A DNA stretch of 64,000 bases from positions 16,028 to 80,027 of the IMG/VR virus record IMGVR_UViG_3300027762_000003, one strand, 5' to 3'. The stretch comes from a virus. Shown piece by piece: positions 14,594 through 47,864 of the stretch (its first letter is position 1; every line of letters starts with the position of its first letter). A model generated the notes under the pieces. The model did not search any database. It worked only from the letters and a program-made list of their open reading frames with translations, and was not told where the DNA came from. A program made the position numbers and the translations under genes.

Positions 14594-15190
14594 CTAAGCC
14601 GTGAGAAGGTCTTTTATTTTCCGTTTCTTGCGTACTTTTTTGATGTTCTCCTTGATGATTTTCTGGAGGCTCGGATCGCACCCAACCTTGGCAATAAGTT
14701 CAGACGAATTAACATCCCGATCGCTCTCATGTCCACAACAAGCGCAATGGTAGACGGGTTTGTTGATATCCATTTCTGGATCATAGGACAGGCACTGAGA
14801 GCAGATCCGAGATAAAGGTAAATCCGACGCAGGTTTTAATCGCGTCATCTTTTTGCCAAACTCTTGAGTTTTCTTGTCGATTAAGTCGATTTGCTGACCG
14901 ATCGCCGCGTCCAAATTACTCTTATTTTGACCCGCTAAAGCCGCTCCCGTCATCCTTGGCTTTGGCTTTGACTTTCCCTACCTTCTTCTGCAAGCCATCC
15001 TCAACTGCGATACCGGATGAATAGGTGGTCAGGTAAGAAGCGATGCGGTACTGGTGCGATCGCCGTCTGCGTTTCGTCTTCTCATGGATGCGTCTTATCC
15101 TCTGCTTACACTCCTTTACTCCTTGGGAATCACCGCAATGTTTCCACCGTAGGCGTTGAATAGTCCTGGGATAAGGGCTTCGAGGATTTT
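14594..15190 (-). pseudogene. tnpB: Broken TnpB (IS200/IS605-family) remnant
   Basis: Two overlapping minus-strand frames together spell the C-terminal half of TnpB. The upstream one (about 15190-14935) has KQRIRRIHEKTKRRRRSHQY and IAVEDGL with the RuvC-II Glu. A frame change at about 14940 leads into SRICSQCLSYDP, HCACCGHESDRDVNSS with the zinc-finger cysteines and the RuvC-III Asp. The N-terminal half with RuvC-I is absent. No TnpA or element ends are seen. It abuts the CRISPR array, so it is either a dead insertion or the remnant of a locus that was once array-associated. Confidence 0.75.
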
Positions 15191-15196
15191 AAGAGG

Positions 15197-15521
15197 ATTG
15201 AGCAGGATCTAATACTCTCTTAGGGATTGAAACCGAACACCAAATCGCATTAATCACTGCCGAAATTCAGGATTCAATGGATCTAATACTCTCTTAGGGA
15301 TTGAAACGTAATCCTGATCAACCCAAGCTAAGGCATTAGCCAGATTCAATGGATCTAATACTCTCTTAGGGATTGAAACAAGCTTGTGGGTAGCTCGCAG
15401 ATCCCCATCAAGATGATTCAATGGATCTAATACTCTCTTAGGGATTGAAACTGTTGCGTGCTAAATTAGAATCATCAATTGAGAGATTCAATAGATCTAA
15501 TACTCTCTTAGAGATTGAAAC
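15197..15521 (+). CRISPR. CRISPR array, five repeats and four spacers
   Basis: Repeats of 37 bases, each ending TAGGGATTGAAAC in plus reading, lie at 15197-15233 (5' part diverged), 15271-15307, 15343-15379, 15415-15451 and 15485-15521. Spacers are 37, 35, 35 and 33 bases. The last repeat has two G-to-A changes, which suggests transcription left to right with the oldest end at right. The ATTGAAAC end is that of many cyanobacterial type I and III arrays. No cas1, cas2 or cas6 is in the window; the type IV-like genes are 17 kb away. Confidence 0.93.
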
Positions 15522-16007: not shown

Positions 16008-16070
16008 TGTTTCACCTCTTGTTGTTGGTTGTGGATGGCGATCGTCGGTGGTTCGGCGATCGCCTTTTTC
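16008..16070 (+). other. HIP1-based hairpin between two minus genes
   Basis: GGCGATCG, 12-base loop, CGATCGCC and TTTTTC in plus reading. It has the form of a terminator but for the strand opposite to the genes here; it may be a chance pairing of two HIP1 sites. Confidence 0.35.
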
Positions 16071-31677: not shown

Positions 31678-32691
31678 ATGAAATACATCGTAACGACAAG
31701 ATTTGCAGCGATCGCCCAGGTCAAAAAGTTCGCCATGGTAGATGGAACGGTGCCGGGATGGTTGGCAGCAAGTGGTGATGACTTGCACTATGATCACCAC
31801 CGGCCCGGCGGGGCGGATATCCAGATCTTGGAGATGGACACTGCTCCAATCCTGCGCGATACTGATGGTTATACCATCGTAACGACGCAAATAGACGCGG
31901 ATGCCTGCGTAGCGGCGGCATGGCTTCAGCTTAACGAAGATGAACGTCAGGTTAACCTGCGGAAATTATCGGCGATCGCCTATGACTGCGACCACCTTGC
32001 AGTTCCCAGTTACCTTGCTAACCTTTCGAGCTTCGCAGCGCAAGCAGTCGCTGCCATGAAGACCGGTTCATCAAGCCTAGTTAAGGAACTAGACTTGCCC
32101 GCCGACCGTAAGGGGTGGAGCGTCCTAGACAAGGAGGAGTACGCTTCTAAAGCGTTTGAGGCTGGCACACAAGCTATCCTTGACGCTTGCCGGGGAATTG
32201 CCCCATGGCCAGGAGAAAATGGGGAAGCGTCTGGGTACTGGCAGACCGTTGAGAAAAATGTTCAAATGATTTTGGATGGCGATCGGGTAAGCCTTTACAA
32301 AGGTTGCTTGATCTTTGATGGGAAAGGGCTTCAAGGGAAGTATATCGATCCAAGGTGCTGGTTACGGGCAGCGCAAGCAATGGGTATCCGCGACGATGCA
32401 CCCTTGCAGTCTCGGACGCTTTGCCCTATAACCCTTACTCAAAGGGAGGTTTACATTGAGGATACCTTCCAGGGTTACTCTTACACCATCGGGTGTATAC
32501 CGTTCCATCCCAAGCTCAACGAACTCGACTTCACCAGTGGGACATTTGATGCGCTTACTAAAGCGGAAAAATCAATTAATCCCCATGCTGATGGGTGGGG
32601 AGGACGCAAGACAGTTGGCGGATCTGGGTGGAATACTCCATCTAACCTTTCGCCGCAGGAAATTATTGATATAGCTGTTAAATGTTTTTAG
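31678..32691 (+). CDS. DHH-like phosphoesterase candidate
   Basis: 337 residues; no family named with certainty. Metal-binding type motifs are spaced through the N-terminal third: YDHHRPGGADIQ (~38-49), QIDADACVAAAW (~71-82) and YDCDHLAVP (~100-108). A glycine-rich GGRKTVGGSGW near 312 recalls the DHHA1 substrate motif. The order differs from standard DHH proteins, so it may be another fold that binds metals. If real, it would cut nucleotides or short oligonucleotides. It lies between the HD hydrolase and the CRISPR genes and ends before a strong terminator. Confidence 0.5.
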   Translation: MKYIVTTRFAAIAQVKKFAMVDGTVPGWLAASGDDLHYDHHRPGGADIQILEMDTAPILRDTDGYTIVTTQIDADACVAAAWLQLNEDERQVNLRKLSAIAYDCDHLAVPSYLANLSSFAAQAVAAMKTGSSSLVKELDLPADRKGWSVLDKEEYASKAFEAGTQAILDACRGIAPWPGENGEASGYWQTVEKNVQMILDGDRVSLYKGCLIFDGKGLQGKYIDPRCWLRAAQAMGIRDDAPLQSRTLCPITLTQREVYIEDTFQGYSYTIGCIPFHPKLNELDFTSGTFDALTKAEKSINPHADGWGGRKTVGGSGWNTPSNLSPQEIIDIAVKCF

Positions 32692-32819: not shown

Positions 32820-33410
32820 GTGCAATCCAAGGAAGCAAAAACAAGGATCAAAGTGTACCGATTTTACGGAATGCCAGCAACTACGGAACCCAGGTATGGA
32901 TTAATTTCGGCCATATCTTATGCAGTATTGATCTGCCGAGATCGTCGTCGAAGTCAGCTTCAAGGGACTAGCTTCTGGGAGCGATTTCACAAGTGTGTCT
33001 ATGATGCTGGAATCAGATCGACTAATCTCCTGGAGTATCCAGCACTCCTATGCCAAGGGGTGAGTTCAGACTTAACCCAGGCTATCCTCAAGGGATTGTC
33101 CATCCCTCTATCCGAATGCCCTGATATTCACCTCCCCATCCTCCCCACTGGAGAAGCGGGGGACTTGTTCACCCCCAACCAGTCCCCACTACTGACAGCC
33201 TATTGGGTAGAGACCGTGGCTAAATGCTGCAAACTCCACGGATATACAGAAGAGGATATTCTGGAAATTCCTAGGGATATCACCAAGTCGCAATGGGTAG
33301 CGGTCTCTTGTCGGGTCAGAAGAGAGGAGGATAAGGAGATAGCCAAGGTTAATAGTGATCGAGCCAAGGCACTGGAAGAATTGGAAACAATTGAAGTCGA
33401 GGTAAGTTAA
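32820..33410 (+). CDS. Type IV CRISPR small subunit candidate (Cas11-like)
   Basis: 196 residues if the GTG at 32820 is used; the GTG near 32854 with AAGGATCAAA in front is an alternative. The protein is mostly helical (LLTAYWVETVAKCCKLHGYT; terminal coil KVNSDRAKALEELETIEVEV). Its place directly before csf2, two bases away, is that of the cas11 gene in type IV-B loci, and the size fits, but I see no diagnostic motif. Assigned mainly by position. Confidence 0.5.
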   Translation: MQSKEAKTRIKVYRFYGMPATTEPRYGLISAISYAVLICRDRRRSQLQGTSFWERFHKCVYDAGIRSTNLLEYPALLCQGVSSDLTQAILKGLSIPLSECPDIHLPILPTGEAGDLFTPNQSPLLTAYWVETVAKCCKLHGYTEEDILEIPRDITKSQWVAVSCRVRREEDKEIAKVNSDRAKALEELETIEVEVS

Positions 33411-33412
33411 TA

Positions 33413-34576
33413 ATGGACTACGATATCCACGATCGCCGTCACGTCACTTATCACTGTGTATTCGATCTGCTCTCCCCCTTGAGCCACATTGGGGAAACTC
33501 TCGGTGGTAGCAATATCACCGTACTTAAACAAGCCAAACGCATCGCCATTGATGGGAGGGAGCGATCTCACTTCGTTTTTTCTTCCAACGCATTCAGAAA
33601 CGCCATATTTAGACGCAAGGGATTTGGATTTACCCTTGACGGATTAGGCGTGCAAGTTGACCCCACCACCCATCACACCCTTTTTGCAGGAGGGCGGATC
33701 GACTCCGGGACAGTTGCCAATATCGAGCTTGAAGACCAGTTTCGGCGCTGGCTTCCTGGCTTATCCGTACTCGGAACCGCCAAACCTAAAGACATGGGAG
33801 GGGAGAAAGGCTCCCAGATGATTAGTGGGCGGCTATCCGTAGGTGATGCTGTTCTTGTTTGTTACGAAACTATTAATTACATTTATCAGCAAGCGCCTGG
33901 ATTGATTCCCTATTCAATTTACTCATCCGTCAAGCGGATTATGGAGGCAAGGGAGGCGATCACTGCCGATATTTTTTCGCAACCGTCTCCAGAGGCGAGC
34001 GCTGCTTATGAGAAAGCACTGGAGGAGGAGCTACCCAAAATCAAGCAGCACTTGAAATCCTCTACTGCGTGCATTTCCACTAATCGCTTCTATCGCCGCG
34101 ATAGCGAGAGTGATCCTGATTTAGTGAAATACCTGAAAGCGCCTGAGCAGAAACTCATCGGCACTATCCCCGGACTTACGGAGGAAAAAAAGAAGCCGGT
34201 AGCAGAGAAACAGGAGTCTCGATTCATGGGAGACGACCACTTGATTGCTCCAGGCAACCAACTCTATAGCCGGATGGACATGCACGGCACGACTGTAGAG
34301 GAAGGATTTCTCTGTGCAGCGCTCCTAGAATTCGCCAAGCACCCTTATATAGGTGGTAAATCGAATCGAGGTAATGGGCACGTAAACTTGAGGATAAATT
34401 ACAAGGATCACACCATAGGGGAATCGGGAATATTGCTTTCGGTGGGAACCGACTACCAGCAATTAAGCGATCGCGCTCAAGAGAATTACCGTCGGTATTG
34501 TAATCATTTGGAGGAATTTAAGCACCATCTGGAATCCGCAGATTCTATGCCTAGACATCTTTTAGGAGGGAAATAA
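33413..34576 (+). CDS. csf2: Csf2, type IV Cas7-like backbone protein
   Basis: 387 residues. Cas7-type RAMP features: FDLLSPLSHIGETLGGSNIT near the start, a Ser/Asn-rich stretch FSSNAFRNAIFRR, RRWLPGLSVLGT, and GGKSNRGNGHVNL near the end as the glycine-rich loop. In type IV complexes several Csf2 copies form the RNA-binding filament. It sits in a compact row with csf3 and cysH. Family known from plasmids and phages. Recognition rests on these motifs and context; a profile search would settle it. Confidence 0.82.
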   Translation: MDYDIHDRRHVTYHCVFDLLSPLSHIGETLGGSNITVLKQAKRIAIDGRERSHFVFSSNAFRNAIFRRKGFGFTLDGLGVQVDPTTHHTLFAGGRIDSGTVANIELEDQFRRWLPGLSVLGTAKPKDMGGEKGSQMISGRLSVGDAVLVCYETINYIYQQAPGLIPYSIYSSVKRIMEAREAITADIFSQPSPEASAAYEKALEEELPKIKQHLKSSTACISTNRFYRRDSESDPDLVKYLKAPEQKLIGTIPGLTEEKKKPVAEKQESRFMGDDHLIAPGNQLYSRMDMHGTTVEEGFLCAALLEFAKHPYIGGKSNRGNGHVNLRINYKDHTIGESGILLSVGTDYQQLSDRAQENYRRYCNHLEEFKHHLESADSMPRHLLGGK

Positions 34577-34582
34577 ATAGAA

Positions 34583-35269
34583 ATGGAACCCATACAGATT
34601 ACCGCTTGGATGAGTAGCGCGATCGCGCTGCCCGACGATTGGTCGCCCGACTTGGTGGGCATAGTGATCGCTACCATATTTGATAAAGATCCTCGCCCTT
34701 TTCAAGAGGATTTATCCACACTTGAGGGGGTTCCCTTTGCTAAAACCGATTTAGGTTCCCCTCTACTTTGGTATTTTGCCTGCTCGTCCCCTTGCTACGA
34801 GCTACTTAGTGAAGAGGTGACCCGTTTCCGAAAACGCTGGGACGCTGATGACGGTCGGGTTAGCTGGGGTAAGCGCAAGCCCCAATTTAACGCATCGGAG
34901 GGGAGTGAGAAAAATTATGATCTCCCTCTTCCTCTCAGGGGAATGGAGCGGATCGATTGGTTCGCCATTGGAGATATCGGAGGCGCAGAGCGACTGCTCA
35001 AGCAAGTCACCCACCTAGGGAAAAAACGGAAAGGGGTTGTGGCGCGGTGGGTGGTGAAGGCAATCGCTCACGACTGGCATCTGTACCGCAACAACGAGCT
35101 AATGCGTCCTATCCCTATTAGCTGCAAGCGTCCCGAATGTCTTTCATACGGCATTCGGGATTGGGGATGGCGGCCCCCAATCTGGCTACCTAAGAATAAG
35201 GAGCGGTGTGCCATGCCGGTAATCACAGTAATCAAGCCATGGATGAACAATCAAGAGCAAGCTTTTTAG
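34583..35269 (+). CDS. csf3: Csf3, type IV Cas5-like protein
   Basis: 228 residues. Signs of Csf3: N-terminal beta-alpha region ITAWMSSAIALPDDWSPDLV, and near 150 THLGKKRKGVVARWVVKAIA followed by WHLYRNNELMRPIPIS, which matches the KKR...W...LMRPxP block of Csf3. In the complex it caps the RNA 5' end next to Csf2. It starts 6 bases after csf2 and its end overlaps cysH. Confidence 0.8.
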   Translation: MEPIQITAWMSSAIALPDDWSPDLVGIVIATIFDKDPRPFQEDLSTLEGVPFAKTDLGSPLLWYFACSSPCYELLSEEVTRFRKRWDADDGRVSWGKRKPQFNASEGSEKNYDLPLPLRGMERIDWFAIGDIGGAERLLKQVTHLGKKRKGVVARWVVKAIAHDWHLYRNNELMRPIPISCKRPECLSYGIRDWGWRPPIWLPKNKERCAMPVITVIKPWMNNQEQAF

Positions 35270-35931
35270 GATGGACTCAACTCCCTCGATTTAAGAAAAG
35301 AGTGGAGGAAGCCAAGCGAACCATCAATGAGGCACTGGCGATCGCTCCCTCCTATGTTGCGGTTAGTTGGGGAAAAGATAGCACCGTACTACTCCACCTG
35401 TGCCAACAAATCGATCCGAATATCAAGGCTATTTCACTAGGGAATCCGGATCGCTCTTTTTGTGGCTATGAGCAGGTAATTTCGGACTACTGCGATCGCT
35501 TCCCAACCAATCTCGAAACAATCGAAATAGAGGGAGATCACGTTCCCGACAAACTCAAGCAACTGCGACTGTGGGAGCGGTATCCTATGGCGATCGTAGG
35601 AGTACGGAAAGAGGAATCGCAATATCGCTCGATGGCTATTTCTCGTTATGGGCTGATCTACCAATTCACCAATGGCGAAAAGGAGGGAAGTTGGAGGTGC
35701 TTTCCTTTGGGATATTGGGGATGGCAAGATGTCTGGGGTTATATAGTGCAGCACGATTTACCTTATCTGAGTGCCTACGATCGCCAATCTTGGGAAAGGG
35801 GAAGGACGACTGACCATTTGAGTAAAAGCACTAAAAAGCGATGGCAGCGTACCCGATTAGAGGGATTAGCGTCCATCGCTCCTGAATACTATCAGTATTT
35901 GCTCAAGCAATACCCAGAAATGTTCAACTAG
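35239..35931 (+). CDS. cysH: CysH-like PP-loop ATPase of type IV-B locus
   Basis: 230 residues from ATG 35239 inside csf3; a GTG at 35206 is the other choice. PP-loop SWGKDSTVLLHL near the N-terminus, LGNPDRSFCGYEQVI, and IVGVRKEESQYR typical of the PAPS reductase/sulfotransferase-like family. The catalytic Cys of true PAPS reductases is not seen at the C-terminus. cysH-like genes are a known companion of type IV-B loci; their task is unknown, perhaps nucleic acid modification. Confidence 0.85.
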   Translation: MDEQSRASFLGWTQLPRFKKRVEEAKRTINEALAIAPSYVAVSWGKDSTVLLHLCQQIDPNIKAISLGNPDRSFCGYEQVISDYCDRFPTNLETIEIEGDHVPDKLKQLRLWERYPMAIVGVRKEESQYRSMAISRYGLIYQFTNGEKEGSWRCFPLGYWGWQDVWGYIVQHDLPYLSAYDRQSWERGRTTDHLSKSTKKRWQRTRLEGLASIAPEYYQYLLKQYPEMFN

Positions 35932-36256
35932 CTAGGACAAAATCGACCCCATTAGGGGTTACAATCCCATCCCCGTAGCTGACCGAAATAAACTCCAACC
36001 CTTCATGTCCAATATCGGAAAATCCATGAACTTGCCCGGATTCCTTATGGTAAAGATCCCCCTTCTTTATCTGGTGATTTTTGTCTCCATCAAACCAGAT
36101 CCCACTTCCTCTTAGGATTTGGATACTACAGGGTACTTCGTGACTATGGGGAGGGACTTCACCACCCTCTTCTATCCTCACCAGGAGGACTTGAGTATTG
36201 TAGCGATTGAAGATATTTTGAACGGTTGTTTTCTTGCACTCGTCAATCTCAAACAT
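35924..36256 (-). CDS. Cupin-fold protein inserted in the CRISPR locus
   Basis: 110 residues. Cupin pattern: EGGEVPPHSHEVPCSIQILR (metal His pair with Glu) and DLYHKESGQVHGFSDIG (second His motif). It is read against its neighbours, overlaps the end of cysH by 8 bases, and separates csf1 from the other csf genes. Function unknown; such cupins often bind small ligands or metals. Confidence 0.8.
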   Translation of the reverse strand: MFEIDECKKTTVQNIFNRYNTQVLLVRIEEGGEVPPHSHEVPCSIQILRGSGIWFDGDKNHQIKKGDLYHKESGQVHGFSDIGHEGLEFISVSYGDGIVTPNGVDFVLAS

Positions 36257-36293
36257 ACACTAATCCAATTTTGTTGACCCATCTATTTTAACC

Positions 36294-36968
36294 ATGAATT
36301 ACTGTTATCTGTGCGGGAAAGACGGAGATCGCCCATTAGATCTTCCCAAAACATTCACCGCCCATAACCTAGCCAAAAACCCCACGTCTGACGTACTCTG
36401 TGATCGCTGTTACGGGACGATTGCAGGTGACGAAAAACAGCTCTACTACTGGAACGAGAACAAGAATCCGCCTGCATGGTCAAAGTTATGGGGGCGATCG
36501 CTCTCCAGGCTTTACGTGGGAGAAGAACTGAGATCACCCATCATCGAAGGAGAGCGGGAAGGTACGGCGATCGTCCACTCTTTACCCACTCGTGTAGAAA
36601 TCCGGCAATGGCTCATCAATCCACCTGAGCCACCATTTACAATCGCCATCTCGGTTTCAGGGCAAAAGCATATTTTACCTTTTGCCCAAGAAGCGCATGA
36701 TAGAGAGCGGTTTCCGATTCGATTTGAGTTAACCTCTTTGGAGGTCAACCGCCAAGAATTCACTCGCCTACTCGCTAATTTTGAAATGCTTTACGACATG
36801 GGATTGACTAAAGCGGAAATCCTTAAAGGCAATTACAGTGTGTCACGAGTGGCGGCGATTCCTTATGCGGATTTCCTGAAAAGAGAGGAGGAGATCGCGC
36901 AGTACCGTGGCACTGACCTGCTAGAGTTGGCGGCGTTTGTAGCGCAAAAGGAAGGGGCGATCGAGTAG
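36294..36968 (+). CDS. csf1: Csf1, type IV zinc-finger protein (Cas8-like)
   Basis: 224 residues. The N-terminus CYLCGKDGDRP and VLCDRCYGTIA gives a CxxC...CxxC zinc finger as in Csf1. The middle has PPFTIAISVSGQKHILPFA, and a helical part follows (FEMLYDMGLTKAEILKGNYS). In type IV the protein is the large-subunit relative. It is usually first in the locus; here it is last, after the inverted cupin gene. Near its start TTGACC lies 14 bases before TAACC. Confidence 0.78.
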   Translation: MNYCYLCGKDGDRPLDLPKTFTAHNLAKNPTSDVLCDRCYGTIAGDEKQLYYWNENKNPPAWSKLWGRSLSRLYVGEELRSPIIEGEREGTAIVHSLPTRVEIRQWLINPPEPPFTIAISVSGQKHILPFAQEAHDRERFPIRFELTSLEVNRQEFTRLLANFEMLYDMGLTKAEILKGNYSVSRVAAIPYADFLKREEEIAQYRGTDLLELAAFVAQKEGAIE

Positions 36969-39235: not shown

Positions 39236-39610
39236 ATGGCAAAAAAATCTAGGTTCACCAACACTCAGAAGAGAACTATCTTAGTTGAGTCTGTCGCTCT
39301 TGGTGATAGTGCTACGGCAAAAAAATATAATATAGACCCTAAGACACTGTTTCGATGGCGAAAAGAGATAGATCAAGAGGAGTTAGATAGAGCCATAGAA
39401 GAGGCTGGCCCATTTTCGACAGAATTCAACGAAACCCTCAAACTCTCCACTCAATTCCTGAATGAACTCCTGAAGAAGGCGATCGTTAATATCCAGAACA
39501 TGAATGACCAAGGGGAGTCCAGGGCGATCGCCGCCTACCATGGATTATTTAAGGCGTGTGCCGATCTTAATATCCTGAAAGAGTTAGAACGAGACTCAGA
39601 GGATGATTAG
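39236..39610 (+). CDS. Terminase small subunit candidate
   Basis: 124 residues. Helix-turn-helix region (VALGDSATAKKYNIDPKTLF, RWRKEID) then a coiled coil. Its last 8 bases overlap the large terminase gene, the usual place for the small subunit, which picks the DNA packaging site. A promoter is not clear; GTCCATT and AATGGAC form an inverted pair upstream (39168-39212). Confidence 0.7.
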   Translation: MAKKSRFTNTQKRTILVESVALGDSATAKKYNIDPKTLFRWRKEIDQEELDRAIEEAGPFSTEFNETLKLSTQFLNELLKKAIVNIQNMNDQGESRAIAAYHGLFKACADLNILKELERDSEDD

Positions 39611-41093
39611 CATACAAGCCAGAATTAATGAAAAGCTTAATCGGAGGCGACAAAAACGCAGAGAAGGCAGGAGGTCACCACTAATTAAGCTTGAGCAAGC
39701 GATCTCCGACATCGATGGGCCAGTTGATTTCACACGCCAGATTCTTGGCATCAAGCTCTACCCCAAACAAGAAGAACTCTTAGCCGCGATCTGGCAACCT
39801 GGAGTTACCCACGTGGTGTTGTCACTCGGCAGACGTTCCGGTAAGACCACCATGGCGGCTATTTGTGCGGTTTATGCTGCAATCTGCTTGGGCGATCGCT
39901 ACCGTAAAGCGCTTGGTCTACGCTCCACGTTTAATATCCTCTGTATCGCCAACAAGGAGGCACAATCCAAAGTCGCGCTAGGGATGATTAGGGACTTAAT
40001 TCAGAAAGCGCCCCTACTCAAACCCTTAATCAAGCGCCAAGCAATGGAAACCCTAGAACTAACCAACGGGGCAATCTTTACGGCATCCCCCGCCTCATCT
40101 AGGGGTATCCGTGGGGAAGCATCACCCCTAATTATTTTCGATGAGTTGGCTCACTCCCTCGACACATCCGGAAACGCAGCCGGTGACCAACTCTATCAAG
40201 CGGTGGCTCCTGGCGCTGCTCAGTTCGGGAAGTACGCCAAGATTCTTATGCTTTCTACCCCATGGATTCAAGGGGGAATTTTTTGGGACTTCTATAACCA
40301 AGGGCAATCCCCCGATTACCCGTCCACGTTCTCTATTTCCTTGCCAACATGGGAAGTTAACCCCCATCTACCCTATGATGGGGAATTCCTCAAAGAAGAG
40401 CGCGATCGCGACCCATGGTCATTTAACATCGAGTACGGCGCTAACTTTGCCTCACCCGTAGGCGCTTTTCTCTCGTCTGATGACGTGGAAGCGTGCATAC
40501 TCAGAGAACATGCCAACCCCACCCCAACGAAGTCAGACCACTACTACACCCTTTCTCTTGACCCTGCTAAAGGTGGGCGGGATGAGTATGTAGCCTGCAT
40601 CCTCCACTGGGAAAAGGATGAGTGCATAGTCGATCGCTGGTATGTATTTGAGCCATCCGTCCAGGATGGTAAGCGGAAACTCGTAAGCGTGGAAGAAGTA
40701 GAGAATTGGATTATCGAGAGCGATCGCCGCTACCGGTTCCACAAGATTATCCTCGACCAGTACAACAGTCAAAGCACTATACAGAGCCTAAAGAAGCGCG
40801 GGTTACCTTGCCGTGAACTTCATTGGTCAGCCAAGTCGGTGACGGAAGCCTACACCAAACTAAGAAACCTGGTCATCTCTGGCAACCTAAACCTGTACCG
40901 GCACAAGAAGGCGATCGAACAGTTGAAGGGATTAATTGTGAGGTACAACAGCGTAGGCACAATGTCTATTAGCGGCGGTGACGGTGCGGGGGTTGACGAC
41001 TACTGCGCTGCTCTTGCCGGCGCTGTGTTGGTGAGTACGCCACCCAGACCGCCAGGGCGATCGGGTACGTTCTCGATGAGTATGTGGGGGTGA
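39603..41093 (+). CDS. terL: Terminase large subunit
   Basis: 496 residues. ATPase: Walker A LGRRSGKT (75-82), Walker B LIIFDE (176-181), motif C LMLSTPW. Nuclease: SLDPAKGG with D320, IILDQYN with D385, and GVDDYCAAL near the end. It cuts and pumps viral DNA into the head. Size is normal. It opens the plus-strand packaging and head region, though portal follows 4 kb later behind regulatory genes. Confidence 0.95.
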   Translation: MISIQARINEKLNRRRQKRREGRRSPLIKLEQAISDIDGPVDFTRQILGIKLYPKQEELLAAIWQPGVTHVVLSLGRRSGKTTMAAICAVYAAICLGDRYRKALGLRSTFNILCIANKEAQSKVALGMIRDLIQKAPLLKPLIKRQAMETLELTNGAIFTASPASSRGIRGEASPLIIFDELAHSLDTSGNAAGDQLYQAVAPGAAQFGKYAKILMLSTPWIQGGIFWDFYNQGQSPDYPSTFSISLPTWEVNPHLPYDGEFLKEERDRDPWSFNIEYGANFASPVGAFLSSDDVEACILREHANPTPTKSDHYYTLSLDPAKGGRDEYVACILHWEKDECIVDRWYVFEPSVQDGKRKLVSVEEVENWIIESDRRYRFHKIILDQYNSQSTIQSLKKRGLPCRELHWSAKSVTEAYTKLRNLVISGNLNLYRHKKAIEQLKGLIVRYNSVGTMSISGGDGAGVDDYCAALAGAVLVSTPPRPPGRSGTFSMSMWG

Positions 41094-41828: not shown

Positions 41829-41876
41829 TGGGGAACCTCGTAGGATAAAGGGCTGTAGCCGTTTGGTTATATTTCT

Positions 41877-41905
41877 ATAATAGTATAATGTTTCGCTATT
41901 GTCAA
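41877..41905 (-). promoter_or_regulatory. Phage consensus promoter
   Basis: Minus: TTGACA (41900-41905), 17-base spacer ATAGCGAAACATT..., TATTAT (41877-41882). Confidence 0.88.
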
Positions 41906-41923
41906 GCAGTTTACCAAAAGAAA

Positions 41924-41944
41924 AACCCGGTAGTTAACCGGGTT
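41924..41944 (-). terminator. GTTAAC-loop terminator
   Basis: Minus: AACCCGG-TTAACTA-CCGGGTT plus TTTC. One of four near-identical hairpins with GTTAAC in or next to the loop (others 42698, 47405, 47716). Ends the gene at 41964. Confidence 0.8.
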
Positions 41945-41963
41945 TTGATTTAGCGAATTAAGA

Positions 41964-42305
41964 TCAAAGCTTGTTCCATTCCTTGGGGAAGAACCCAGGA
42001 TCTGCAATCATTGCTTGTCTATGTTCCTCGGCTTCTCTGCGTGCTTGTGGACTGTTCCAGTCAAATCCCTTCATAAAAGGGTTTTCCTTAACTTTGTAAG
42101 CGCGACAAAGATAGTCGTCATTGGGCGCGTGTTTCCTCACGAATTCGGTGCAGTCTTCCAGCTTTTCAACATAGAAAAGCGCGTCTTTGATCCCTTTAGG
42201 GGTTTTGGGGAACTCGTGAGTCTTGCCCGTCCGATCTTTTACGAACACTCGTTCGCCGACAGTCTTGATACATCCTTGTTTTACGTTGGGAGTTTTAGCA
42301 GCCAT
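41964..42305 (-). CDS. Hypothetical protein
   Basis: 113 residues, MAAKTPNVKQGCIKTVGERV; ends in an acidic/aromatic tail. No family recognised. Own promoter at 42338 and leader TATAGACAAAACAAAGAGGAC, terminator at 41924: a one-gene cassette. Confidence 0.65.
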   Translation of the reverse strand: MAAKTPNVKQGCIKTVGERVFVKDRTGKTHEFPKTPKGIKDALFYVEKLEDCTEFVRKHAPNDDYLCRAYKVKENPFMKGFDWNSPQARREAEEHRQAMIADPGFFPKEWNKL

Positions 42306-42337
42306 GATTTAGTCCTCTTTGTTTTGTCTATATCTAT

Positions 42338-42366
42338 ACAATAAGGGAATGTTTCGCTATTGTCAA
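42338..42366 (-). promoter_or_regulatory. Phage consensus promoter
   Basis: Minus: TTGACA (42361-42366), 17-base spacer ATAGCGAAACATT..., TATTGT (42338-42343). The first 13 spacer bases equal those at 41877. Confidence 0.88.
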
Positions 42367-42391
42367 GCAGTTCAGTAAATCAGATCTAGCA

Positions 42392-42420
42392 TTGACAATA
42401 GCCAGATATATGAGTATTAT
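42392..42420 (+). promoter_or_regulatory. Phage consensus promoter
   Basis: TTGACA (42392-42397), 17-base spacer starting ATAGCC, TATTAT (42415-42420). Divergent from 42338, 26 bases apart. Confidence 0.88.
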
Positions 42421-42446
42421 AGAGTTATAGATGAACGGAGAACACC

Positions 42447-42629
42447 ATGAACTACACAACCATTGAAGAAATCAAAACCCTGAGCAAGAAAGACGCTTTA
42501 GCGCTACGCAAGGACTATCTGAAAGAGATCCCCTTCTACGTTTCGATGGGCGGCGATCGTGATGAGACTGCTGTAGAGATGAGGTTGGTAGTTGGGCTTA
42601 TAGATAGCCTCTACCCCAGGAAAAAATAA
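42447..42629 (+). CDS. Hypothetical small protein
   Basis: 60 residues, MNYTTIEEIKTLSKKDALAL. Own promoter and terminator. GGAG before the ATG. Not recognised; such small phage proteins often disturb host functions early. Confidence 0.6.
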   Translation: MNYTTIEEIKTLSKKDALALRKDYLKEIPFYVSMGGDRDETAVEMRLVVGLIDSLYPRKK

Positions 42630-42648
42630 AGGGAAATAAAGAAAAGTA

Positions 42649-42673
42649 AATCGGGGTTAACCCCGATTTTTTT
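42649..42673 (+). terminator. Terminator of the gene at 42447
   Basis: AATCGGGG-TTAA-CCCCGATT then TTTTT. Confidence 0.88.
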
Positions 42674-42697
42674 ATTGGTTATATTTAGGCAAAGAAA

Positions 42698-42718
42698 AAC
42701 CCGGCGGTTAACCGGGTT
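42698..42718 (-). terminator. GTTAAC-loop terminator
   Basis: Minus: AACCCGG-TTAACCG-CCGGGTT plus TTTC. Same element as at 41924. Serves the gene at 42757. Confidence 0.78.
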
Positions 42719-42756
42719 GTAGTTCATGTCCCGTAGGCGGGGCTGATGGGATGGGG

Positions 42757-42999
42757 TTAACCGGGATATTCCCACTCTTCAAATACATTTAGTGATTCTT
42801 CAATAAGCTTCATATCGCGAATGTCTCGGCATTTGCACCGATTAATGTTAATACCGGGTACACGATAGGCGGGGGGTTCACTCCCCTCGATCAAGGTCGA
42901 GGGAGGGATCAGCGAGGCGATCGCCTCTTGCTCAGAATCCGCTTCTATAAATAACCGGTGGGTTACGATCTCTTTTATCTCTATAATATATCTAGCCAT
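42757..42999 (-). CDS. Hypothetical protein
   Basis: 80 residues from ATG 42999 (MARYIIEIKEIVTHRLFIEA), preceded by GAGGACAAAATC as in the other cassettes. An upstream ATG at 43038 lies within a duplicated leader. Pattern of a small alpha/beta protein with ADSEQEAIASL; no family recognised. Confidence 0.6.
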   Translation of the reverse strand: MARYIIEIKEIVTHRLFIEADSEQEAIASLIPPSTLIEGSEPPAYRVPGININRCKCRDIRDMKLIEESLNVFEEWEYPG

Positions 43000-43027
43000 G
43001 ATTTTGTCCTCTTTGTTGTGTGTGTAG

Positions 43028-43113
43028 TATGTGGTCATGCCCTCAAAGGAGAGGGCGGTGAAAATCAGTATATGTGGTCATGCCCTCAAAGGAGAGGGCG
43101 GTGAAAATCAGTA
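43028..43113 (-). repeat. Exact 43-base tandem duplication in a leader
   Basis: 43028-43070 and 43071-43113 are identical. On minus each copy holds the hairpin GCCCTC-TCCTTT-GAGGGC and an ATGACCACATA that starts a short upstream frame. The second copy overlaps the stop of the gene at 43108. Confidence 0.9.
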
Positions 43114-43557
43114 GACGTAGTTTAGAGAATCGGCTTTCCAGCATCCGTGATCGCGATCGCCCCAGTAGATCTCCTCCTGCCCTCGCTGGTAGTCGTCATC
43201 ATCCCGTTGTGCTTTCTTGTAGCCAGCCATGTACGCCTGGCTGGTTTCTTGGGGTTCCAAGCCGGTCAACCAATCCTCGTACCCACGGCGGTGGGTACGG
43301 GCATAATCATCTGGGCGGTAGGCGAGTGCCACCTTGTAGCCCAGCTCATAAAACTTGAAAAAATATAAATTTTCTTTTTGGGTGTGCAGGGGGGAGAAGG
43401 GGCGGTAGGCGAGTGCGTCAGCCACAGCCTGACGCACAATGAGGGAACCGGGGCAGCGATCGTAGCGAGGCGAGAGGTGGTAACCGATGGTGGGGTCGGT
43501 GTAGATCGAAGAGTAGGTCGAGAGGTGAAGTGTGTTAGACTTGTCGTTAGAAGACAT
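43108..43557 (-). CDS. Hypothetical protein
   Basis: 149 residues, rich in Tyr, Asp and Arg. Contains two RPxxYxxG-type stretches (FYELGYKVALAYRPDDYART, QAYMAGYKKAQRDDDDYQRG). Not recognised. Own promoter at 43635-43663 and a leader with a 5' hairpin GGGAAGCG/CGCTTCCC like that of the annealing protein gene. Confidence 0.6.
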   Translation of the reverse strand: MSSNDKSNTLHLSTYSSIYTDPTIGYHLSPRYDRCPGSLIVRQAVADALAYRPFSPLHTQKENLYFFKFYELGYKVALAYRPDDYARTHRRGYEDWLTGLEPQETSQAYMAGYKKAQRDDDDYQRGQEEIYWGDRDHGCWKADSLNYVY

Positions 43558-43634
43558 GAGGTTTTACCTTTTGTTTGCGAGTGAGAGGGAAGCGAGACTT
43601 TGGTCGGTAGCGCTTCCCTTTCGTGTATATCTCT

Positions 43635-43663
43635 ATAATAACTAAACATTTCGCTGTTGTCAA
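43635..43663 (-). promoter_or_regulatory. Phage consensus promoter
   Basis: Minus: TTGACA (43658-43663), 17-base spacer starting ACAGCGAAATG, TATTAT (43635-43640). Confidence 0.87.
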
Positions 43664-43735
43664 GTAGAAAAATAAAATTCATTCAAGTAAGCCGCAATCC
43701 TTTTGTGGGAAGGCGTTGAGGGCGATCGGTTGTGC

Positions 43736-43827
43736 TATAATAATCAAAAGCCCAGAGCGCAGGATTGCGGGAAACAATCCAGGCTCTATCACCGGGCTGG
43801 TCAACCTAGAACAAGTAGGCCAACTAC
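43736..43827 (+). promoter_or_regulatory. Structured leader and promoter, copy D of four
   Basis: TATAAT (43736-43741), then nested stems GCCC/GGGC, AGAGC/GCTCT and GGATTG/CAATCC, then GGTCAACC and hairpin CCTA-GAACAAG-TAGG before the ATG at 43828. The first hairpin is longer and unrelated in sequence to that of copies A-C, while the end is the same. Confidence 0.7.
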
Positions 43828-44547
43828 ATGGATTTTACCGAATTAGTGTCCAGCACACAACGTGCTGATGGTTTTGTCAACGCTACCAAGTGGTGTAAAG
43901 AATTTGGCTATGAAGTCAAAAATTGGAAGCGACTGCCTGAGACCAAGAAGCGAGCCAAAGCTTTACAGGATGAGGTTTTCAGGTTAACGGGTGAAAAAAT
44001 TACGCCCATTATTTCTGAGAATAAAGGACGTGCCGGATCGGTAACTTGGGTACATCCCATCATGGCTATCCACTTAGCCCAATACCTTTCCCCTGAGTTT
44101 GCCAACTTTGTCGCTGAAGTCTTTCAACGCTACCTTGAGTCCGATATCACCCTGGCTGATGAGATCGTGCAGCGCCAAGATGATCCAGAGCGGGTTAAGT
44201 GGCTGAAGGAGCGGATTGAGGGCAAGCTTGCACGTTTCTATTTCACTGATGTTCTGAAACGACATGGAGTCGGTGAAGTCAATCGGGGTCGGTATCGTGA
44301 GAACGGCTACGCTCTCTGCACCGAGGCAATCAACAAAACCCTTTTCGGCAAGACTGCCAAGCAGATCCGGGAAGAGCGCCAAGTCCAAGAAACCAGGGAC
44401 GGATTAAGCCGCGTGGAATTGGCAGCGCTCAACTTAGCTGAAACGATCGCCGCCGAAAATATCCGAGAGGGCGATCGCCGTGGCAATCGGCAGTGCCGGG
44501 ACAGTTGTCAGGACGCGGCATCAAGGGTGCGCCGCGTCTTTGATTAG
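43828..44547 (+). CDS. KilA-N domain regulator
   Basis: 239 residues. Residues 1-115 are a KilA-N DNA-binding domain: RADGFVNATKWCKEFGYEVK, RAGSVTWVHPIMAIHLAQYL and SPEFANFVAEVFQRYL. The remainder is helical and charged with an odd Cys/Arg-rich end (RGNRQCRDSCQDAASRVRRV). Such proteins act as antirepressors or gene switches in phages. It carries leader copy D. Confidence 0.88.
   Translation: MDFTELVSSTQRADGFVNATKWCKEFGYEVKNWKRLPETKKRAKALQDEVFRLTGEKITPIISENKGRAGSVTWVHPIMAIHLAQYLSPEFANFVAEVFQRYLESDITLADEIVQRQDDPERVKWLKERIEGKLARFYFTDVLKRHGVGEVNRGRYRENGYALCTEAINKTLFGKTAKQIREERQVQETRDGLSRVELAALNLAETIAAENIREGDRRGNRQCRDSCQDAASRVRRVFD
44512..44538 (+). terminator. Hairpin at the end of the KilA-N gene
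   Basis: GACGCGGC, 11-base loop, GCCGCGTC then TTT. It lies within the last codons. A second hairpin, GTTCACTTC/GAAGTGAAC, is at 44569-44591. Confidence 0.5.
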
Positions 44548-44570
44548 CGGGTCACAGGTTCTCACCTAGT

Positions 44571-45077
44571 TCACTTCCCAACGAAGTGAACCCAACAACC
44601 CCCGTCTGGCATACAGGCTTCCTTGATTAGGGCGTAGGAGTAGTGCAGGTTTTTCCCTGATGCCTTAGTATCATAGCCGTCAGCCCACCACTCCCCCCAC
44701 GGGTCGTTTACAAAGAACCCCCTTTCGTCAAAACCCTTGACCACAATGATATGTCCAGAACTGGTGAAGTATCCGTGGATAATACAAGGTTTTTTTGCTA
44801 TTAAATGGTCTTTAATATCTTTAATCCGAGCGTCACTACGAAATTCATCTTTGTGTCCATAGTCTTTAATTAAAGAAGCTAAATCATGGGGACTGTGACG
44901 GTCTAGTCCATGGTCAAGGCAGTATCGGTAAAGCTCGTCTTCTAGTTGCTCATTGGGGTTTGCTGGTTTAACCCCATAGTAAAGCAAACACATTGCAACG
45001 CTCGACACATTACACGATCCGGATGGATTATATTCATTGTCTCGCTGTGATCTGTAGGGAACATCTAGATTAATCAT
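44571..45077 (-). CDS. C39-like cysteine peptidase
   Basis: 168 residues. VPYRSQRDNEYNPSGSCNVS with catalytic Cys C22, GHIIVVKGF with H109, and NDPWGEWW with D125 give the papain-like C39_2 triad. No signal peptide. It may cut peptide links in the wall (an endolysin or virion-borne enzyme) or process a head protein. It is antisense and next to the portal gene. Confidence 0.8.
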   Translation of the reverse strand: MINLDVPYRSQRDNEYNPSGSCNVSSVAMCLLYYGVKPANPNEQLEDELYRYCLDHGLDRHSPHDLASLIKDYGHKDEFRSDARIKDIKDHLIAKKPCIIHGYFTSSGHIIVVKGFDERGFFVNDPWGEWWADGYDTKASGKNLHYSYALIKEACMPDGGCWVHFVGK

Positions 45078-45184
45078 AATTACCCCCCCACTTCTTATTC
45101 CCTTTAACTTAAATTCTAGAGACCTATATATATTATAGCTTCATCAAAAATGAACTAGAATAAAGGTATTTTATCTCTAAAAAT

Positions 45185-46528
45185 ATGCCCTATTCACCTG
45201 AAGTTAAATGGGATTTTTACCAAGGCGATCACGAAACAGCGATCGCCTACTGGAGTGGCCCCCGCCCATCCGAAACCCAACGCAGTGCCGACACATTTAA
45301 CCGGTATCTTGACCAGTCGATTAACACCTACAACATCATCAAGGAACTGGTGTCCCACTATGTGAACGCCTTAGTAGGTAAGCCATTCAACTATCCAGAA
45401 GATGAACTTCTATCTGAGTGGCTCCATACCCAAAGACGCTTATCCGCTTTCCGTCGTCGCGCCGACCCATTTATGGAGGCGGTCACACAAGCGCTAGTCT
45501 CTGGGCGATCGTTCATCCGCTTGTACACCCCGGAAAGATTCCAGAACTCTAAAAATTCCCTACTCCTAGTTACCCCGCACCTGTGCCATCTTCAAGACTC
45601 TAAGCCAGAGTACGATTCTGATGGATTCTTAAATCGATTCACCTATACCTATCGCGATTCAAAGGGCGGGCGAAAGCAAGAAGTATATTTCATTGATGAA
45701 TCGGGATACACTCACATCCTGGCTAATGGTGAGGAGATTATTGTCGATCGCCGTGGGATGATGCCTATCTTTGAGCTATCGGTCGATCCGGTAATCTCGG
45801 ATGCTGCCATCTGTGCCCAGAGAGCGCTTACCGTACTACTCACGATGTTAAATGAGTTTATCTGCTCTTCTGCCCTTCCTGAGCATATCGTCACCAATGC
45901 TCAAGTACCAGGTGAAATCATTGAAGATCCCGATCACCCTAGGGGACAACGGTTTGAGCCGAGACAAGATCTACTTGAGTTTGGGGCTAACCAGTTAGTG
46001 ATGCTCGATGGGAAACCAATCGGCGATCCAGATATGCCATCAGGGTTCACCAGTCCGTCCGTTTACTTCAAGGAACCGAGTAACCCGCAAACTTTTAGGA
46101 CTGCATTAGACATCCTCATGGAGACGGTTTATAGAGAGGCGGGATTGGGGCATTTACTGACGAGTGGAGATGGTTCATTGTCCGGGGTAAGTCGTGCCAC
46201 ACTAAAGTCCGACTTTGAGCTTCGACTAGGGAACTATAGGGAATATATTGAGGATTTCTTTAACGCTATTCTGGAGTATGTCTTGATTGAATTGGGGCAA
46301 AAAGACCCCTATGTAGAGACTCAATTAAATCTTGATACCGGGAATATTTTACCAGAGGAACGTAATGCAATCTTAGAGGAACTCAACTCAGGAATCCGAT
46401 CTCGTAGGTCTGCTATGCGGGCGCTCGGCATTGAAGACCCTGATGCAGAGGAGGAGCAAATACTACTGGAACAAAACCGGGATATGGGGGTGACCGATAT
46501 CCCGGATGAAGAAGCTACCCTCGATTAA
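45185..46528 (+). CDS. Portal protein
   Basis: 447 residues. The features of SPP1 gp6-type portals: an N-terminal helical part (NTYNIIKELVSHYVNALVGK), FMEAVTQALVSGRSFIRLYT, DPVISDAAICAQRALTVLLT, and the late acidic end LPEERNAILEELNSGI. It forms the ring through which DNA enters and to which the tail joins. Good length. Followed by an antisense scaffold-like gene, then capsid. Confidence 0.85.
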   Translation: MPYSPEVKWDFYQGDHETAIAYWSGPRPSETQRSADTFNRYLDQSINTYNIIKELVSHYVNALVGKPFNYPEDELLSEWLHTQRRLSAFRRRADPFMEAVTQALVSGRSFIRLYTPERFQNSKNSLLLVTPHLCHLQDSKPEYDSDGFLNRFTYTYRDSKGGRKQEVYFIDESGYTHILANGEEIIVDRRGMMPIFELSVDPVISDAAICAQRALTVLLTMLNEFICSSALPEHIVTNAQVPGEIIEDPDHPRGQRFEPRQDLLEFGANQLVMLDGKPIGDPDMPSGFTSPSVYFKEPSNPQTFRTALDILMETVYREAGLGHLLTSGDGSLSGVSRATLKSDFELRLGNYREYIEDFFNAILEYVLIELGQKDPYVETQLNLDTGNILPEERNAILEELNSGIRSRRSAMRALGIEDPDAEEEQILLEQNRDMGVTDIPDEEATLD

Positions 46529-47183
46529 AGTTTAAGCGGGTTCTTTTTAGATAATCCCCAACTAGATCCTCTTTCTTGCTGGCCGGGCGATCGTTACTTG
46601 GTGCGCTTGGCAGCGATCGCTCCCGTGTTTGGGGTTCAGGTGATTCTCGCTTGAGCGCGGGGAGGAACATGCTGAGGGTCGGGTCACTGGCGATCGCCTG
46701 GGTTATTTCCTGAGATTGGTAATATGCTTTCCCTCCTGAAATCTCAATGCTGTCCACATCAATAGCCGAAATATTAGAGAGGATATTTGCATCAAACCCA
46801 GTTAGCCTACTCACCTCTTGCAGCGTGTATTTCCGGTTGATGGTTTGCAATTCTTGTCGGCTTTCCGCTAATTCATTCTTAGCCAGTTCCAAGTCTGATT
46901 TCATCCTTTGATTAGCCAGGTGTAAATCTCGTTTCTCTTGTGAGACTTTCTTCACTACCTGGTCAATGGAAATCGTCGGATCACTACCCTCTAATAGGCT
47001 TTGGATTTCTGATTGTGCGCTTGCCAACTCAGCTTCAGCCTTGCGCAACTTATCGTTCTTTTCCCTGATTTCACCAATAACTTTAGTCTTGCCGGATTCT
47101 AGTTCGGAAATTCGAGAGGCGATCGCGGTTTTTATTTCTTCATCCGCAATAGCCTCTAAGGCTTGTTCGTAATTGTAAGGCAT
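46515..47183 (-). CDS. Scaffold-like coiled-coil protein, antisense to head genes
   Basis: 222 residues. A long coiled coil (residues ~25-115: AIASRISELESGKTKVIGEI...) then a small domain and a basic C-terminus (SKKEDLVGDYLKRTRLNFNR). This is the plan of phage scaffolding proteins, which guide shell building and are then lost; the basic tail would bind the shell. It lies between portal and capsid, the usual place, but on the other strand, overlapping the portal end by 14 bases. Confidence 0.65.
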   Translation of the reverse strand: MPYNYEQALEAIADEEIKTAIASRISELESGKTKVIGEIREKNDKLRKAEAELASAQSEIQSLLEGSDPTISIDQVVKKVSQEKRDLHLANQRMKSDLELAKNELAESRQELQTINRKYTLQEVSRLTGFDANILSNISAIDVDSIEISGGKAYYQSQEITQAIASDPTLSMFLPALKRESPEPQTRERSLPSAPSNDRPASKKEDLVGDYLKRTRLNFNRG

Positions 47184-47457
47184 AGTATTTTTAGGGTTTC
47201 AATCTCTGATATTGAATTATCTATTAGAAATCGCCGGTTGATCTCACCAGCAAATTGTGGCTGCCAAGACTGCACCACCATACCCCCCGAAACCGGGGAA
47301 CATCCGAGGACGTTAGAATTATTATAACAGCAAAACAAAGACAATTAGAGTCAACGATTGCCCCACCCCCACCCGCATTTCTACGAGTGGGGGTGGGGCA
47401 ACAGAAAGCCCGGTTAACCACCGGGCTTTGGGCATATTTAATATTCGATTTATTGCA
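47184..47457. other. Leader of the scaffold gene and two large hairpins
   Basis: Minus reading: TATAAT near 47323 starts a ~130-base leader with CCGGTTTCGGGG. On the other side, TTGCCCCACCCCCAC (47358-47372) pairs perfectly with 47387-47401 (15 pairs), and AAAGCCCGG/CCGGGCTTT (47405-47429) is a GTTAAC-type terminator for the gene at 47458. Confidence 0.6.
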
Positions 47458-47754
47458 TTACATCCAAGGGCATCCAGAATATCCGTGCCTATAGATTACC
47501 CAATCAATGGATTTCTTCAAATCCTCTCCTTCATCAAGGATATTCTTCATGTCGTCATAAAACAGCCAGTCTTGGGTGTAAATTCTCCACCCATCCTCTC
47601 CTTCATTCCGATTCCGAACTGCTACGGTGCTTTCAGTGAATCGGACTTCGTGGGTTGTTCCAGTGAATAACGAGTTCATAACGAGTTCATATTGGTTTCC
47701 TTTTTGCGATTGAAAGAAAACCCGGCGGTTAACCGGGCTGTGGGGTGGGGTCAT
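47458..47754 (-). CDS. Hypothetical protein with hairpin in its first codons
   Basis: 98 residues if the ATG at 47754 (AAGGAGACCAAT in front) is used. A GTTAAC-loop terminator (47716-47737) falls within the first codons. A second AAAGGAAACCAAT and a tandem ATGAACTCGTT (two copies) follow, and ATG 47676 (MNSLFTGTTHEVRFTESTVA) may be the true start. The body is beta-rich and not recognised. Confidence 0.5.
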   Translation of the reverse strand: MTPPHSPVNRRVFFQSQKGNQYELVMNSLFTGTTHEVRFTESTVAVRNRNEGEDGWRIYTQDWLFYDDMKNILDEGEDLKKSIDWVIYRHGYSGCPWM

Positions 47755-47790
47755 ATTGGTCTCCTTGTTTTTTGTTTTGTGTATATTACT

Positions 47791-47819
47791 ATAATAACTG
47801 AACGTTCAGCTAATGTCAA
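47791..47819 (-). promoter_or_regulatory. Phage consensus promoter
   Basis: Minus: TTGACA (47814-47819), 17-base spacer starting TTAGCTGAACG, TATTAT (47791-47796). Confidence 0.87.
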
Positions 47820-47864
47820 TTGATTTAGGGAAAAAACTTTTCTAGATCCTTCAAGCCCTTATAG

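Follow-up and report, generated by a model that had tools for sequence, protein, structure and literature searches.

A type IV CRISPR effector module with a CysH-like gene in a tailed phage, and a related phage lineage that usually carries Cas6

The virus record IMGVR_UViG_3300027762_000003 of IMG/VR, a contig of 80,027 nucleotides (nt), encodes what is, judged from its sequence, a type IV clustered regularly interspaced short palindromic repeats (CRISPR) effector, with a Csf2-type Cas7, a Csf3-type Cas5 and a Csf1 large subunit all present. We analyzed the 64,000 nt from position 16,028 to position 80,027 of the record, hereafter called the window, in whose numbering the coordinates below are given. 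The module belongs to a type IV lineage of tailed bacterial phages that carries CysH and usually Cas6, often together with a cupin, a combination that is new as far as the literature and collections show. This lineage is IV-B by gene content and unresolved by descent, and we propose, giving the idea an even chance of being right, that it is a phage-borne, nuclease-less type IV effector loaded with CRISPR RNA (crRNA).

Five open reading frames (ORFs) form an ordered cluster on the + strand at 32820-36968, encoding Cas11, Csf2, Csf3, a CysH-like protein and Csf1, as a preliminary description of this DNA had stated. The Cas7 backbone gene csf2 (33413-34576) matches PADLOC typeIV_Cas7 with an E value of 7.8e-33, the Cas5 gene csf3 (34583-35269) matches typeIV_Cas5 at 7.2e-31, and csf1 (36294-36968), for a Cas8-like large subunit, matches typeIV_Cas8 at 3.9e-26. 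The Csf3 profile also matches the IV-A Csf3 7xfz at 4e-5, and Csf1 has four invariant, putatively zinc-binding cysteines (C4, C7, C36 and C39). The NCBIfam equivalog models for Csf1-3 score well below their cut-offs, so the three proteins are distant members of their families. The match of the small-subunit gene cas11 (32820-33410) to typeIV_Cas11 is only 0.022, weak if taken alone; its predicted identity is secured by homologues that occupy the same position in related loci, directly 5' of csf2 in phages and plasmids (phmmer, 7e-14 and 1.9e-7). An AlphaFold2 model of Cas11 is all-helical and of low confidence (predicted local distance difference test [pLDDT] 51), too weak for a fold search. 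The cysH-like gene (CasCysH; ORF 35206-35931, likely start 35239) encodes a PP-loop ATPase (Pfam PAPS_reduct, 8.5e-13) with 54% and 46% identity to CysH from related loci, and its SWGKDS motif is invariant in three homologues. Between cysH and csf1, on the - strand, lies a cupin gene (35924-36256; Pfam Cupin_2, 1.2e-9), whose pairwise similarity to the cupins of related loci is weak (0.04-0.25). The preliminary description had also noted that cas6, cas1 and dinG are missing. Indeed, Cas6 was not found in the window phage by profile or phmmer, nor were Cas1 (PF01867) and a DinG-type helicase (PF13307) found in the record, which may be incomplete. No nuclease was identified in the type IV module, and Rfam gave no match.

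Single-sequence Csf2 scans of genome and viral contig collections returned no match and were insufficient to find relatives; alignment-based scans were needed, and in IMG/VR they yielded 15 further viral records with the module, making 16 viral records in all. No Csf2 relative occurs in 50,697 GenBank phage records, and the only plasmid matches are Gloeobacter morelensis pGMOR1 (43%) and, weakly, Rhodovastum. We distinguish six sequence lineages, namely the window phage, G001, G002, the near-identical G005 group, G008 and pGMOR1. By profile mapping, cas11-csf2-csf3-cysH is present in the records long enough to show these genes. Cas6 (Pfam PF09559, 1e-31 to 2e-38) accompanies the module in 12 of the 16 viral records, within the operon or elsewhere in the genome, and also in pGMOR1. 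By lineage this amounts to four of six, the exceptions being G002, an 18.7-kb fragment, and the window phage. A cupin gene is found in eight loci (G000, G001, G003-G007 and pGMOR1), and pGMOR1 displays the order cas11-csf2-cas6-csf3-cysH-cupin-csf1.

The module had been called IV-B-like beforehand, a view that holds for its gene content: a cysH-like gene is adjacent, cas11 is present, the large subunit is Csf1 and not Cas10, and neither DinG nor Cas1 was found. The DinG helicase expected of IV-A (PF13307) is thus missing, and IV-C is contradicted by the Csf1 gene at the locus, the nearby HD protein being of SpoT type with no Cas10-like replacement. The remaining part of the IV-B definition, no cas6 and no array, fits less well. 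The window phage is without cas6, yet it has an array elsewhere, and the lineage to which it belongs usually carries Cas6, which is contrary to the definition, textbook IV-B systems being devoid of Cas6. We compared ten classical IV-B plasmid loci, from Rhodococcus, Mycolicibacterium, Gordonia, Frondihabitans, Natrinema, Halomontanus and Actinarchaeum; no Cas6 or cupin profile match lay within 4.5 kb of csf2 in these plasmids or around the Rhodovastum and Thermococcus genes. A Thermococcus "Cas6" beside CysH was rejected, as it is a Csf3 by profile.

The ancestry of Csf2 points to a separate lineage. In the Csf2 tree, the window protein, pGMOR1 and the phages group in one deep, long-stemmed clade (support 100/99). 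Rhodovastum is its sister at 96/93, a position that is doubtful given a long-branch warning. When the long rows were dropped the clade persisted, and its placement relative to IV-A and archaeal IV-B was not fixed. An AlphaFold2 model of Csf2 (pLDDT 68, predicted template modeling score 0.69) retrieved Cas7/Csf2 folds in Foldseek, as had been anticipated, with IV-A structures first (2.8e-10) and the IV-B structure 7jhy at rank 37 (0.009). A profile search likewise gave the IV-A structure 8rc2 at 2.5e-7 and 7jhy at 1e-5, and the single sequence searched against the PDB prefers the IV-B Csf2 of 7jhy (3.9e-5). A bolder view is that the loci constitute an undescribed, phage-adapted type IV subtype of cyanophages (Csf1-3, Cas11, CysH and Cas6, often with a cupin), which would be crRNA-guided, would use its own Cas6 on distinct repeats and would combine RNA-guided binding with CysH and cupin chemistry against host CRISPR or rivals; we regard this as possible but somewhat unlikely.

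The claim that the system lacks its own array is correct at the locus and not across the genome. At 15197-15521, on the + strand, the window phage carries a CRISPR array of five 37-nt repeats, GATTCAATGGATCTAATACTCTCTTAGGGATTGAAAC, and four spacers of 33-37 nt. The first and last repeats are degenerate, and no comparable periodic repeat arose in 30 shuffles. The 37-nt repeat is of type I-D, ending in GGGATTGAAAC and providing the I-D-type handle AUUGAAAC, and it shares 30 of 37 positions with the repeats found on two Pseudanabaena plasmids that bear I-D cas operons. Exact and degenerate repeat searches for host or sister arrays in genome and viral contig collections gave no match. Any functional link between this array and the csf genes is an inference.

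The I-D arrays of Pseudanabaena also reveal a host for the Cas6-bearing phages. Two such arrays together hold 154 spacers, and 11 of these match G005, G007, G010, G011 or G015 at E<1e-5, compared with none in 20 shuffles or when reversed, and several of the matched protospacers have a GTN flank; these matches name Pseudanabaena as the host of the Cas6-bearing phages. None of the 154 spacers matches the window phage. Its description as a cyanobacterial virus is therefore sustained by the I-D-type repeat and by its relatives (the Gloeobacter plasmid and the Pseudanabaena-targeted phages), which make a cyanobacterial host likely, and not by a spacer tying it to a host. In the reverse direction, a small array of G005 (G005:46614-46914; L032:6814-7114) has a spacer matching 35/35 nt of the P. 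galeata plasmid pPg_01 (L005:20390-20424), which itself encodes an I-D CRISPR whose spacers target the G005 phage family. We considered whether the G005 array serves the type IV complex and rejected it, because a complete Cas12u2 (V-U2) gene lies alongside and the whole cassette is missing from relatives that are 98% identical.

Based on these results, we suggest that Csf2 (Cas7) subunits, joined by a filament of Cas11 and capped by Csf3 (Cas5) and Csf1, would come together on processed crRNA. For most of the lineage, this RNA would be made by a Cas6 that the phage or plasmid itself encodes. The window phage, being without Cas6, would need a host I-D Cas6 to process RNA from either its I-D-type array or the arrays of the host. 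Once loaded, the complex would attach to nucleic acid (DNA or RNA) belonging to host immunity or to rival elements and block it while leaving it uncut; since the module has no identified nuclease, binding rather than cleavage is expected. CysH and the cupin may have accessory enzymatic roles, perhaps in modifying the complex or the nucleic acid that it binds. In line with this proposal, every subunit of the solved IV-B ribonucleoprotein (RNP), four in all, is encoded (PMC7937560), and the predicted Csf2 is nearest, by Foldseek, to the crRNA-loaded, DNA-binding Csf2 of IV-A. Furthermore, the repeated linkage with a Cas6-family RNase, in four of six lineages and, within 4.5 kb of csf2, in none of the ten classical plasmids, argues that repeat-derived RNA is made and loaded. 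Arrays are present in the window phage, with an I-D-type handle, and in pGMOR1, whose eight-repeat array (L012:43311-43861) is unannotated and has an unusual repeat sequence. Finally, the Cas6-bearing phages are under I-D CRISPR attack from their hosts. We also observed that pGMOR1 holds a gene annotated as an I-D Cas3'.

Several observations weigh against a crRNA-loaded effector. In the one IV-B complex that has been studied, the bound RNA was heterogeneous, and crRNA was not enriched even with a co-expressed I-E Cas6 and array (PMC7937560). The weakest point is a twofold one: the phage Cas6 has little resemblance to its counterpart in the host I-D system (E 0.13), and no cognate array was found for it, searches of the Cas6-bearing phages having revealed neither an array nor a solitary I-D repeat except for the V-U2 array of G005. 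As to the array of the window phage, a distance of 17 kb separates it from the csf genes, a V-U2 remnant is next to it, its spacers S1-S3 have no match in IMG/VR (20-mers), and the whole array, S4 included, has none in plasmids and phages.

These features of the array raise a separate question, on which we lean slightly toward the view that it is unrelated to csf, either as a captured I-D-type mini-array feeding a host I-D system or as the relic of a V-U2 locus. The remnant, 119 amino acids from the C terminus of a V-U2 effector (Cas12u2/TnpB) at 14594-14953 on the - strand (PADLOC Cas12u2, 5.2e-24), covers only positions 355-441 of the 445 in the profile and is 244 nt from the array. The G005 array, too, stands beside a Cas12u2 gene, complete in that case, and both are missing from near-identical relatives. 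Solo I-D-type and V-U2 arrays are known from the cyanophages N-1 and CL131 (PMC4916379, PMC6293099), so the window array may serve a host I-D system or a vanished V-U2 effector. In N-1 the I-D-type array is without cas genes (PMC4916379), a situation that we also encountered in the isolated Microcystis phage MaMV-DL01, which has an unannotated mini-array of two I-D-like 37-nt repeats and one spacer (PP681323.1, L006:4003-4115). The V-U2 half of this explanation is weakened by the repeat itself, which is I-D-like and differs from the V-U2 repeat of G005. The csf complex may, moreover, make use of the same crRNAs even if the array serves another system.

The RNA binding of the studied IV-B complex allows two further explanations of the module. 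As was proposed for IV-B (PMC8175902), the complex may be a guide-RNA sponge, an anti-CRISPR that sequesters crRNAs or small RNAs of the host with no sequence-specific targeting and spares the phage from I-D interference, the phage Cas6 helping to divert pre-crRNA. The binding of random RNA (PMC7937560), the lack of an own array in most Cas6-bearing phages and the heavy targeting of these phages by host I-D spacers (11 spacers, 0 in 20 shuffles) agree with such a role. We nevertheless consider it unlikely, as the dissimilarity of the phage and host Cas6 proteins makes processing of I-D repeats unproven and a sponge would leave Csf1, CysH and the window array unexplained. Alternatively, the module may function outside CRISPR, the RNP coating phage or host RNA, CysH and the cupin modifying nucleic acid or making a small molecule, and Cas6 cutting non-repeat RNA. 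Only one accessory gene, that for CysH, is retained in all loci of sufficient length, and the random RNA bound by the IV-B RNP (PMC7937560), together with the lack of Cas6 and array in classical IV-B, would fit this explanation. The retention of a Cas6-family RNase in four of six lineages points instead to processing of repeat-like RNA, and we deem a non-CRISPR function quite unlikely.

That the window belongs to a tailed virus, as stated in the preliminary description, is supported by genes for the large terminase subunit (TerL), major head, portal-like and minor head proteins and ribonucleotide reductase. TerL (39603-41093, + strand; PHROG 2, 4.3e-35) is downstream of csf1 and preceded by an ORF at 39236-39610 (+) that, from its position, is a putative small terminase. 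The distance from csf1 to the terminase is 2-3 kb in both the window and G001. In G005, clearly a tailed phage with tape measure, TerL, portal and DnaB, and in G010, csf1 is distant from the other csf genes and lies within about 2 and 5 kb, respectively, of the large terminase gene. The neighboring hydrolase of the preliminary description is present upstream, as an HD_4/SpoT-type protein, and the ORF with a DHH-like motif (31678-32691, +) has no Pfam match, although phage G008 has a homologue at a distance of 3.5 kb from its csf genes. Extra csf3 copies occur in G002 and G008, and the viral locus of G002 (L014:1372-8662) holds three csf3, two cysH and two csf1 genes. In the G010 operon, a small ORF between csf2 and csf3 looks by eye like a GIY-YIG protein (L022:8954-9331), and the place of the cupin of sister phages is taken by a gene that matches Coq4 weakly (6e-4; L022:10683-11273). 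Imperfect, promoter-like direct repeats of about 50 nt lie 5' of several genes of the window (41862-47832 and 1456-1504).

Viruses with type IV genes had been described before, among them the Bathyarchaeia virus Fuxivirus (PMC10848311), which resembles the present loci in its virus-borne IV-B-like genes, its cysH and its mini-array. That virus is, however, archaeal, its one-spacer array lies within the cas locus and, in the part of the account on which we draw, neither Cas6 nor cupin is reported (PMC10848311), whereas here we deal with bacterial phages and with four spacers at 17 kb. Cyanophage N-1 shares the five 37-nt repeats and four spacers (PMC4916379) and CL131 the array beside TnpB/V-U2 (PMC6293099); no type IV effector genes were reported in either. 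The IV-B systems of Mycobacterium sp. JS623 (Csf complex 7jhy), Rhodococcus and haloarchaeal plasmids have in common with the module csf1-3, cas11, a cysH-like gene, the lack of dinG and Cas1 and residence on a mobile element. They differ from it in that the phage lineage has a separate, long-stem Csf2 clade, that most of its members have Cas6 and many a cupin, that its carriers are tailed phages and not plasmids, and that the predicted Csf2 of the window ranks IV-A structures higher. The IV-A systems (Csf complexes of P. oleovorans and K. pneumoniae; Aromatoleum EbN1) are similar in Csf1-3, in Cas6-type processing and in offering the best Csf2 fold match, but the window phage has no detected DinG-type helicase, and it has cas11 and cysH. 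Also new, as far as literature and collections show, is that the window phage combines type IV genes with an I-D-type array.

The function of IV-B is still open (PMC8175902, PMC11656645, PMC12669027). Its guide and function are unknown because IV-B loci carry neither Cas6 nor arrays; related phages that have the same module together with Cas6 make the question of the guide RNA testable. Together, our results extend the range of type IV systems beyond plasmids, to a bacterial phage family, and the retention of Cas6 in tailed phages that can be assigned to the host genus Pseudanabaena offers a direct handle on the guide RNA.

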